This document shows positions 1 to 4,319 of a stretch of DNA of 64,000 bases, piece by piece. The stretch's first letter is position 1. Each line of letters starts with the position of its first letter. The notes below the pieces were generated by a model. It was given only the letters and a program-made list of their open reading frames with translations. It was not told the origin of the DNA and did not search any database. Location of the stretch: assembly GCF_001475935.1 (NCBI RefSeq), contig NZ_LDQA01000022.1, positions 62,001 to 126,000 on the forward strand, given 5' to 3'. The stretch is from Aureimonas ureilytica. Its GTDB lineage: Bacteria; Pseudomonadota; Alphaproteobacteria; Rhizobiales; Rhizobiaceae. The translations under genes were made by a program, and so were the position numbers.

Positions 1-396
1 GTCGCGCGCCTGCCGGCGCTGGGGTCGGGCGAGCAGTCGAGCTGCCTCGGCGGCTGGGAGTTCGGCGTGTCCGCCTATTCGCAGCATCAGGACGAGGCCA
101 AGAAGCTCGCCGAATACCTGAGCGGCCAGGAGGTCTCGAAATATATGGCGGTCAACGGCGCGCTGCTGCCGACCTATGCCAGCCTCTATGGCGACCCGGA
201 CGTGTTGAAGTCCGCCCCCTGGTTCGCCGAAGCGCTGCCCGTGGTGGAAACCGCGCGCGCCCGGCCGGTGACGCCGCGCTACAACGAGGTGAGCGAGGTG
301 ATCCGCACGACGGTGAACGCCGTTCTCTCCGGCGTCTCGACGCCCGAGGAAGGGGCCGCGCAGATCGAAAGCCGGCTGCGTCGTATCCTGCGCTGA
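1..396 (+). CDS. ABC transporter sugar-binding protein, C-terminal part (probable sulfoquinovose/SQGro-binding protein, SmoF-like)
   Basis: The reading frame is open from the first base of the window, so only the last 131 residues are present and the start lies upstream. The fragment has the features of the C-terminal lobe of family-1 sugar-binding proteins: an invariant Gly-Gly-Trp stretch near its start, a [11 protein letters not shown]-type helix, a '[15 protein letters not shown]' segment and a final helix ending in RRIL. It would act in the periplasm and deliver sugar to the two permeases that follow in the same operon. The substrate is inferred only from the downstream sulfoquinovosidase; the N-terminal ligand-contact residues are outside the window. 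Family assignment is secure, substrate moderately so. Confidence 0.85.
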
Positions 397-494
397 GTGC
401 CGACGAAGCCACAAGCCGAACCGGCGCGGGTCTCGCGTCGGTTTGATGGCGAAGCCTCGGCAGAGGGCGTTCACGACGGTAAGGATGGGTGATC

Positions 495-1427
495 GTGACC
501 TTGGCAGCGACGGACAGCATGAAACGGACCGATCGACAGCCTGCGGCCTGGCTGCGCTGGCTCGACCCGAGCGACAAGGTGCTGGCCGCCTGGCTGCTCG
601 CGCCGGCCGCGCTGCTTCTGTGCGTCATTATCGTCTATCCTGTCGGCCGGCTGATCTGGATGAGCTTCCAGAATCTGTCGCTGACCTCGGGTCTTCCGGC
701 CTCCTTCGCCGGGTTCGAGAACTACGCCCTGATGTGGGACGATCCGGTCTTTTGGGAGGCGTCCTGGAACACGCTCCTGATCGTGGCCATCACCGTGCCC
801 GGCGCGCTTCTCATGGGGCTCGGCATGGCGCTTCTGGCCAATCTGCCCTTCCGGCACAAATGGCCGGTGCGCCTGTCGCTCCTCATTCCCTGGGCGCTGC
901 CGCTCTCCTTTGCGGGCCTCATCTTCGCGTGGTTCTTCCACTATGAATACGGCATCGTGAACGATGTGCTGAACCGGCTCGGGCTCCAAGGCGTGATCTG
1001 GTTCAACTCGCCGGGTTGGGCTTTTGCCGCCATCTGCCTCACCATCGTTTGGAAGACCGCGTCCTTCATGGCGCTGATCATCCTCGCCGGACTCCAGACC
1101 ATTCCGCGCTCGCTCTACGAGGCGGCGGATGTGGACGGAGCCGGGCGCGTCCGGCAGTTCTTCGAGATCACGCTGCCGCTCCTGAAGCCCGCCATCGTCA
1201 TCGCGCTGATCTTCCGCACGATCACCGCGCTCCAGACTTTCGACATTCCCTATATGATGACCGGGGGCGGCCCCGGGACCTCCACCGTCACGCTCGCCAT
1301 GTATATTCATCAGAACACCGTGTCCTTTCTGGACCTCGGCTATGGCTCGGCGCTGGCGGTGGTCATGTTCGCCTTCTCCATGGCCGTGACATTCCTGTAT
1401 CTCCACATGCTGCGCCGAAAGGGCTGA
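495..1427 (+). CDS. ABC transporter permease, MalF/UgpA type (SmoG-like, sulfoquinovose import)
   Basis: Inner-membrane permease of a carbohydrate ABC importer. About six hydrophobic segments are visible, and the cytoplasmic EAA loop ([15 protein letters not shown], near residue 208) that contacts the ATPase is intact and followed by the usual TLPLLKP. Three starts are possible: GTG 489, GTG 495 and ATG 519. GTG 495 is preferred because AAGGA at 481-485 sits nine bases upstream; the choice changes only the cytoplasmic tail. The gene follows the binding-protein gene by about 100 bases and is four bases from the second permease, so the genes are co-transcribed. No ATPase gene lies in the visible part; it should be upstream of the window or shared. 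Confidence 0.85.
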
Positions 1428-2285: not shown

Positions 2286-2294
2286 AGGACCGTC

Positions 2295-4319
2295 ATGACA
2301 TCAGACCCGGTTTTCCCGCTCGCCGCCCCCGTTCTGACCACCGAGCCGGACGGCTTCTCGCTTGTCCTCTCCGGCAAGCTTGTGCTCACGCATAGCGCCG
2401 CCGCGCCCTGCCTCTTTGTCGGCCAGGGCCAAGAGCGGATGGAGATGTATCGGGGCAATTTCGACATTGAGGATTATGTCGTGGAGCGCGTCGCGCTGCG
2501 CCATGCCGCGATCTCGGGGGATGTGATCGATCTCTCGCCCAGCCCTTCCGAGCCGGCGCGCCTGCGCCTGAGAGTGGAGGGAGCCGCGCTGCGCTTCGAG
2601 GCGCTGGACCCCGCGATCAACCGGCTCTGGCTGCGCGTTCAGGCCGAAGCGGGCGAGCATGTCTGGGGCGGCGGCGAGCAGATGTCCTATTTCGACATGC
2701 GCGGCCGGCGCTTTCCGCTCTGGATCTCAGAGCCCGGCGTCGGACGCGACAAGACGCGCGAGCTGACCTTCAAGGCCGATGTCGCGGGCCGGGCGGGCGG
2801 CGACTATTACCACACCAACTATCCCCAGCCGACCTACCTGTCTTCGCGCCGCTATGCGCTCCATGTCGAGACGCCGGCCTATTCGGTCTTCGATTTTCGC
2901 CATGAGGCGTTTCACGAGATCGAGGTCTGGGCCGTTCCCGAGCGGATCGAGTTCTTCGACGCCAGCGATTTCGAAGGGCTGGTGGAACAGCTCTCCACCC
3001 GCTTCGGCCGCCAGCCGCCGTTGCCCGATTGGGTCTATGGGGGAGCGATTATCGGGTTGAAGGATGGGGAAAAGTCCTTCGAACGGCTGGAGTGCATCCG
3101 GGCGGCGGGCGCCGCCGTGTCGGGCCTCTGGTGCGAGGATTGGGTGGGGCTGCGTCATACGTCGTTCGGCGCGCGGCTCTTCTGGGACTGGCAGGCCAAC
3201 GAGACGCGCTATCCCGCCCTGCGCCAGCGCATTGCCGAGCTGAGGGGCGAGGGCATCCGGTTTCTCGGCTACGTGAACCCCTATCTCTGCGCCGATGGCC
3301 CGCTCTTCCCGAAGGCCGAAGCGGCCGGCTATTTCGCGAGAGATGCCGAGGGCAAGACCGCCCTGGTCGATTTCGGCGAGTTCGATTGCGGCGTCGTGGA
3401 CTTCACCAATCCGGCGGCTGCCGACTGGTTCGCCGAAGAGGTGATCGGGCGCAACATGCTGGACTTCGGCCTGTCCGGCTGGATGGCGGATTTCGGCGAG
3501 TATCTGCCAGTCAATGTGCAACTCGCCAATGGCGTGGACGCCAAGCTGATGCACAATCCCTGGCCGACCCTTTGGGCGGAGGTCAACGCGCGGGCCGTCG
3601 CCAGCCGTGGCATGACGGGGGAGGCGCTCTTCTTCATGCGCGCGGGCTTCACCGGCGTCGGGGCGCATTGCCCGCTTCTGTGGGGCGGAGATCAGTCGGT
3701 AGACTTCTCGCGCCATGATGGGCTGGTGACGGTCATCTCCGGCGCTTTGTCCTCCGGCCTGCTCGGTAATGCCTACCATCATTCCGACATCGGCGGTTAC
3801 ACCAGCCTCTTCGGCAATATCCGCACGCCCGAGCTGATCATGCGCTGGGCCGAGATGGCCGCCTTCACGGCCGTCATGCGCACACACGAGGGCAACCGCC
3901 CGCGCGACAATCTCCAGATCGACGGCGACGAGGCGGTGCTCTCGCATTTCGCGCGGATGACGCGGCTCTATGTCCATCTCGCGCCCTATCTGCGAAGCCT
4001 TTCGGACGAGGCGGTTCAGCGCGGCCTGCCCGTGCAGCGCCCGCTCTTCCTGCATTTCCCGGGCGACCGGGCGACCTATGCGATCCAGGACAGCTATCTC
4101 TACGGGCGCGACCTACTCGTTGCGCCGGTCTGGCGGGAGGGCGAGACCTCGCGCGAGGTCTATCTGCCCGAGGGCGCGGATTGGGAGCATGTCTGGAGCG
4201 GCGAGCGCTACGAGGGCGGGGCGACGATCCCGGTCGAGGCACCGCTCGGGCGCCCGCCCGTCTTCATCCGCCAAGGCTCGGTTTGGATGGACCTATTCCG
4301 GACGCTCGCCACGCTCTGA
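2295..4319 (+). CDS. smoI: Sulfoquinovosidase, GH31 family (SmoI/YihQ)
   Basis: Retaining GH31 alpha-glycosidase of 674 residues that should release sulfoquinovose from sulfoquinovosyl glycerol or the plant sulfolipid SQDG. The catalytic nucleophile is Asp399 in WMADFGEYLP and the acid/base is Asp466 in WGGDQSVDF, matching Asp405 and Asp472 of E. coli YihQ. The sulfonate-recognition set is K256, E281, R294, W297 and Y502. The spacing equals that of the Agrobacterium enzyme (K245, E270, R283, W286, Y491), with a constant offset of 11, so this is the KERWY subgroup rather than the QQRWY subgroup of YihQ. No signal peptide is seen, so it acts in the cytoplasm after import. ATG 2295 lies nine bases after the permease stop, with GAAGGA upstream. 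This call rests on remembered reference numbering but agrees at all five positions. Confidence 0.92.
   Translation: MTSDPVFPLAAPVLTTEPDGFSLVLSGKLVLTHSAAAPCLFVGQGQERMEMYRGNFDIEDYVVERVALRHAAISGDVIDLSPSPSEPARLRLRVEGAALRFEALDPAINRLWLRVQAEAGEHVWGGGEQMSYFDMRGRRFPLWISEPGVGRDKTRELTFKADVAGRAGGDYYHTNYPQPTYLSSRRYALHVETPAYSVFDFRHEAFHEIEVWAVPERIEFFDASDFEGLVEQLSTRFGRQPPLPDWVYGGAIIGLKDGEKSFERLECIRAAGAAVSGLWCEDWVGLRHTSFGARLFWDWQANETRYPALRQRIAELRGEGIRFLGYVNPYLCADGPLFPKAEAAGYFARDAEGKTALVDFGEFDCGVVDFTNPAAADWFAEEVIGRNMLDFGLSGWMADFGEYLPVNVQLANGVDAKLMHNPWPTLWAEVNARAVASRGMTGEALFFMRAGFTGVGAHCPLLWGGDQSVDFSRHDGLVTVISGALSSGLLGNAYHHSDIGGYTSLFGNIRTPELIMRWAEMAAFTAVMRTHEGNRPRDNLQIDGDEAVLSHFARMTRLYVHLAPYLRSLSDEAVQRGLPVQRPLFLHFPGDRATYAIQDSYLYGRDLLVAPVWREGETSREVYLPEGADWEHVWSGERYEGGATIPVEAPLGRPPVFIRQGSVWMDLFRTLATL

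Follow-up and report, generated by a model that had tools for sequence, protein, structure and literature searches.

Gene content and order at the smo locus

The window, which is the whole 64,000-nucleotide stretch that was analysed, covers contig positions 62001-126000 of a genome of 5.0 Mb in 183 contigs. A gene cluster crosses its left edge, and the 18 kb lying directly before it on the same contig (positions 44001-62000, here called L009) were read together with it. On the plus strand run smoD, for a GntR/UTRA regulator assigned by family match (L009 15221-15925), smoE, for an ABC ATPase in the place of SmoE (L009 16041-17105), and smoF, for a predicted SQGro-binding protein of 412 amino acids in total. 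The smoF gene starts at L009 17158, 842 bp upstream of window position 1, and its 3' part occupies window positions 1-396. Two ABC permease genes with BPD_transp_1 matches, smoG (489-1427) and smoH (1431-2285), and the GH31 gene smoI (2295-4319) complete this run. Spacings between consecutive genes from smoD to smoI are 115, 52, 92, 3, and 9 bp; since the last three gaps lie on one strand and are this short, we infer that smoF to smoI are co-transcribed.

The minus strand of L009 carries smoC (13962-15119, with the start placed from alignment with 7olf), smoB (13069-13962), the flavin reductase gene smoA (12536-13072), and a yeiH-family gene (11463-12485), separated in that order by -1, -4, and 50 bp. 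The smoC and smoD genes are divergent, with 101 bp between them. In a preliminary description of positions 1-4319, the end of a binding-protein gene, two permease genes, and a GH31 gene had been assigned, all of which lie where they were placed, and an Agrobacterium-type smo cluster had been proposed at the window edge. This proposal was borne out, as positions 1-4319 form the right-hand part of a complete smo cluster.

On the other side of smoI and convergent with it lies a gene for an AraC/FeaR-like regulator (4327-5391, minus strand; HTH_18 and AraC_binding_2). We considered it as a regulator of the pathway, and tblastn (E 1e-10) gave no match in any of the 80 smoC loci (best 80 of 553); the gene is probably outside the cluster. 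Further into the window, positions 5525-8929 encode a three-domain acyl-[ACP]--phospholipid O-acyltransferase, a membrane-lipid enzyme (PRK06814, 1591 against 1349 bits).

The smo cluster of Agrobacterium tumefaciens, with its sulfo-SMO/sulfo-ASMO pathway, was reportedly described by Sharma et al. in 2022. For comparison across genomes, we used the best 80 of 553 SmoC relatives, hence a close set; because these loci were picked by similarity to the SmoC of the source genome, conservation among them partly reflects kinship. Of these best 80, 22 have all nine genes, smoA to smoI, arranged in the same order; nine of the 22 are named Agrobacterium, and the smo proteins of the source genome are 65-88% identical to those of the nine Agrobacterium loci. 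Across the 22 complete clusters, smoG is 76-90% and smoH 82-91% identical. In the source genome the YeiH-family gene comes after smoA on the same strand; Agrobacterium differs here, as six loci from this genus and its close relatives carry a distant YeiH relative (30-32% identity) that points towards smoA.

The smoA-smoD set is present in 69 of the best 80 loci (of 553), and the fetched stretch contains an SQase gene in 78 of them, of the GH31 family in 30 and of GH188 type in 48, never both. The two loci with neither gene (L016 and L038) are interrupted by contig ends, and the nine-gene set is incomplete in 8 of the 30 loci with GH31. The GH188 label was checked on the L017 protein alone (1e-111 to 1e-112 against 8qc2/8qc3), the other 47 being tblastn matches to that protein. 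According to the accessible part of PMC10755693, 8qc2/8qc3 are structures of SqgA, and GH188 replaces GH31 in some smo clusters. Such clusters resemble that of the source genome in having smoD before smoC, with the direct repeat described below between them. Strong TRAP permease matches were found in 22 of the best 80 loci, 21 of which belong to the 48 with a GH188-type gene, whereas the source genome has the GH31/ABC form.

Two further arrangements were seen among these loci. In the Pannonibacter locus L017 (2132-17108), which carries a GH188-type gene, a TRAP transporter lies between smoA and a YeiH-type gene, and further upstream IclR-, SDR-, amidohydrolase-, and sugar ABC-like genes were recognised by sequence reading. 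Near smoC in L046, L054, L057, L058, L066, and L074 (pattern dCehg), there is no smoA or smoB homologue above 100 bits, and other reductases may serve in these loci.

Relatives of the smo proteins and the predicted pathway

Residues 16-673 of SmoI align with residues 5-662 of 5ohy, which we take to be the Agrobacterium enzyme, over 658 residues without a gap (1179.7 bits). The second-best structure, 5ohs/7ofx (1177.6 bits), has N in place of D466, and further full-length YihQ-like matches are 8r56 (862.5 bits), 6pnr (749.6 bits), and 5aed (699.6 bits). Six YihQ-like sequences span 1179.7 to 697.5 bits. Because the next GH31 structure, 5f7c, falls to 160.7 bits and the NCBIfam model PRK10426 is matched with 934.9 bits (cut-off 553), the similarity of SmoI to YihQ-type enzymes is far beyond chance. 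Pfam domains PF01055 and PF21365 are both present, and smoI is the sole PF01055 match genome-wide.

The translation of smoI contains K256, E281, R294, W297, and Y502 together with the catalytic D399 and D466, exactly as listed in the preliminary description, which gave the five KERWY residues the spacing of the Agrobacterium SQase. All seven residues are present in the gapless alignment. The five KERWY residues, presumably the published sulfonate-binding signature of the Agrobacterium SQase, are kept in all 30 close GH31 copies (>70% identity) from the best 80 of 553 smoC loci, and in both additional GH31 copies from genus members. They are missing from a distant GH31 match in L080 (27% identity). 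With a GH31 domain, full-length YihQ-type homology, the KERWY residues, and two catalytic Asp residues, SmoI is a predicted GH31 sulfoquinovosidase.

The genes upstream of position 1 gave equally specific matches. Among solved structures, SmoC matches 7olf (789 bits, 8e-237) and 7oh2, both of which we take to be SmoC; SmoB matches 7bby (456 bits, 5e-136), presumably SmoB itself. The structure listing names the matches of these two proteins methanesulfonate sulfonatase, alkanesulfonate monooxygenase, and aryl-alcohol dehydrogenase. SmoF matches 7nbz, an entry itself named SmoF, with 695 bits (3e-208). The gene in the place of smoA, which overlaps smoB by 4 bp, encodes a PF01613 protein with 59-83% identity to the same-place gene in the 22 complete clusters (best 80 of 553 loci); among solved structures it matches general flavin reductases only. 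An ABC ATPase and homologues of SmoA, SmoB, and SmoC had been anticipated upstream, and L009 holds them all, with smo genes standing where an unrelated sugar pathway would have spoken against the assignment. SmoB and SmoC within a 10-ORF window mark the sulfo-SMO pathway in the available part of PMC13372026, and here the two genes are adjacent. By homology and order, SmoE, SmoF, SmoG, and SmoH would form an SQGro ABC importer.

We regard it as nearly certain that the locus is a complete sulfo-SMO (sulfo-ASMO) cluster in two divergent operons, smoCBA(-yeiH) and smo(D)EFGHI, with predicted control by SmoD and possible export by YeiH. Following the pathway steps as given in the accessible parts of two reviews (PMC9594981 and PMC12890257), SmoF with SmoE, SmoG, and SmoH would import sulfoquinovosyl glycerol or SQ, and SmoI would cleave the glycoside to SQ. 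SmoA would supply reduced flavin, SmoC would split the C-S bond to yield sulfite and 6-oxo-glucose (6-dehydroglucose), and SmoB would convert 6-oxo-glucose to glucose.

A conserved direct repeat on both sides of smoD

In the source genome, the smoC-smoD (L009 15120-15220) and smoD-smoE (L009 15926-16040) spacers have TGTATCAATT in common. A weight matrix of 60 distinct smoC-smoD sites gave the repeat the form TRAATCAATnnTGTATCAATTT, in which ATCAAT occurs twice, 11 bp apart. Of 83 smoC-smoD spacers, 75 contain its 9-base core, TGTATCAAT, unchanged, and 82 contain it when one mismatch is allowed, against means of 0.05 and 2.3, respectively, for mononucleotide-shuffled spacers. These 83 comprise 79 of the 80 loci (best 80 of 553), 3 stretches of other genomes, and the source genome. 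Among 25 smoD-smoE spacers (22 of the same 80 loci, 2 stretches of other genomes, and the source genome), 23 contain the core exactly and all 25 with at most one mismatch, the shuffled means being 0.1 and 2.25. Because the matrix was built from smoC-smoD sites, only smoD-smoE sites are independent of it; their scores range from 19.7 to 43.2 among the loci, with 25.4 for the source genome, and 1.68 Mb of shuffled loci gave no match at threshold. A search of all 5 Mb of the source genome with the pattern ATCAATNNTGTATCAATT gave two exact matches, which flank smoD, and three at 3 mismatches elsewhere; its backward control gave 2 matches at up to 3 mismatches.

We compared 68 distinct windows of these spacers, oriented as smoC is read, that contain an exact ATTGATACA and enough flank. 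The TTGAT of the second half-repeat is kept in 67 or 68 of the 68 windows at each base; at the sixth position of the hexamer, 43 windows have T and 25 have C. TGnTA is found in every window, with its TA starting 17 bp after the TTGATT-type hexamer, and the remainder of the would-be -10 box matches the consensus poorly. We infer that the hexamer and TGnTA serve as the -35 and extended -10 elements, with the operator lying over the -35, an arrangement that fits a repressor.

We propose that this 11-bp direct repeat is likely the operator of SmoD, which probably controls both operons through sites before smoC/smoD and before smoE. As the second half of the repeat before smoC overlaps the likely -35 box, the arrangement suggests repression that would be lifted by SQ or SQGro. 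A less probable reading, though one with some weight, is that the repeat is a mere promoter element or an operator for another regulator. The usable -35 in its second half and the invariant TGnTA at a fixed distance favour such a reading. GntR-type proteins usually bind palindromes, not direct repeats. In addition, L068, where homologues of smoE to smoH come after smoB, has a single repeat site, the second being absent. Against it, however, a second copy stands before smoE in all of the smoD-smoE spacers, in the same orientation relative to its own operon as the copy before smoC, and conservation extends over about 22 bp and drops outside this block. Moreover, L080, the only one of the best 80 loci (of 553) with no smoD match, also lacks the site.

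This predicted operator is the part of the system for which we found no published precedent. Our search, which covered few subscription papers, returned no literature joining sulfoquinovose with SmoD, and, judged by title, none of the papers in it that mention both sulfoquinovose and GntR concerned smo regulation.

Fate of sulfite and distribution of the cluster

The gene that begins 50 bp past smoA is the only PF03601 match in the genome. Its product scores 226.8 bits against this family (cut-off 24.5), and 151.7 bits against the putative sulfate export subfamily TIGR00698, below the cut-off of 232.6. TauZ and YeiH (PF03601, TIGR00698) are, we assume, one family. The locus resembles organosulfonate pathways with TauZ/SuyZ-type putative sulfate exporters in having a putative sulfate exporter gene beside genes for C-S cleavage, and differs in the sub-threshold TIGR00698 score. 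TauZ is described as exporting sulfate after sulfite oxidation in the part of PMC5320631 that was available. The YeiH protein may be a candidate for export or disposal of sulfite or sulfate.

Across relatives, the link between yeiH and smo is loose, because, of the 5 genus members that carry smoC, 3 have yeiH after smoA, and the PF03601 family occurs also in 7 of 16 members that lack smoC. In genomes G008 and G011, the gene is directly downstream of smoA, at about 40 bp and 340 bp from its stop (80% and 83% identity), and in the relatives from A. ureilytica and A. flava a PF03601 gene lies on another contig. Among the best 80 of 553 loci, a YeiH match was found inside the fetched stretch in 24 and in none of the remaining 56 stretches; these 56 and the TIGR00698 score below cut-off also speak against the link. 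Fifteen of the 24 matches (45-50% identity) lie downstream on the smoCBA strand, 14 behind TRAP genes and 1 directly after smoA; 6 are the distant ones that face smoA, and 3 are beyond smoI on the far side. The chance that one gene per 5 Mb falls within 20 kb of the cluster was estimated, with kinship ignored, at about 0.4%.

It is rather improbable that SQ serves here chiefly to supply sulfur, in the way alkanesulfonates do via SsuED, with sulfite assimilated instead of exported and carbon as a by-product. SmoC is related to alkanesulfonate monooxygenase (TIGR03565, 254 bits, under the cut-off of 518). A genome-wide search found neither PF03404, the family of SorA/SoxC-type sulfite dehydrogenases, nor the DmsC-type membrane subunit PF04976, which is in keeping with assimilation. 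For two of the three genomic PF00174 proteins (L091 and L092), the scores are well under the cut-offs for SorA, SorT, and SoxC, so that these searches identified no sulfite-oxidising enzyme; SoeABC may nevertheless be encoded, since its membrane subunit may belong to a family other than PF04976. SmoB in the operon, however, would turn the carbon into usable glucose, and the closeness of the YeiH-family gene to smoA also argues against assimilation. Very improbable is a general alpha-glucoside operon with a GH31 enzyme acting on ordinary glucosides, as one NCBIfam model title ('alpha-glucosidase') and permease matches to glucose, maltose, and glycerol-phosphate permease models might suggest, since the permease scores are far under the curated cut-offs, SmoI and SmoF match a YihQ-type enzyme and solved SmoF best, and SmoC and SmoB homologues adjoin.

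Returning to the sulfo-SMO reading with SmoD control, we cautiously favour a broader model for alphaproteobacterial smo clusters. One SmoD switch, acting at the direct repeat of the smoC/smoD promoter, would be kept while uptake and hydrolysis modules are swapped (ABC with GH31, or else GH188, in many cases together with TRAP), and, in clusters whose ABC module comes after smoD, the repeat would recur before smoE. In the source genome, the regulon would then consist of these two sites only, and a YeiH-type exporter would have been recruited downstream of smoA for disposal of sulfite.

The nearest SmoC relatives are from Aureimonas ureilytica (93%) and A. flava (91%; best 80 of 553); by their coordinates, both loci coincide with genomes placed in the same genus as the source genome. 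With the source genome counted in each, a search of 21 genus genomes found smoC in 5, and a wider kinship search of 61 genomes found it in 8; the count within the genus indicates a patchy trait. As for a second sulfur compound, window positions 39613-42182 encode a choline ABC binding protein (TIGR03414, 429 against 379 bits) followed by a choline-sulfatase (TIGR03417, 865 against 433), and use of choline-sulfate is predicted.

Aureimonas is often found on leaves, and the same search, with its few subscription papers, gave no literature linking the genus with sulfoquinovose. The cluster is an Aureimonas-type member of an already published pathway, and Aureimonas would thereby join the carriers of a complete predicted pathway for the plant sulfolipid sugar. 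The predicted operator would provide a sequence tag with which to search other genomes for regulated SQ genes, and may give a handle on the SQ switch.
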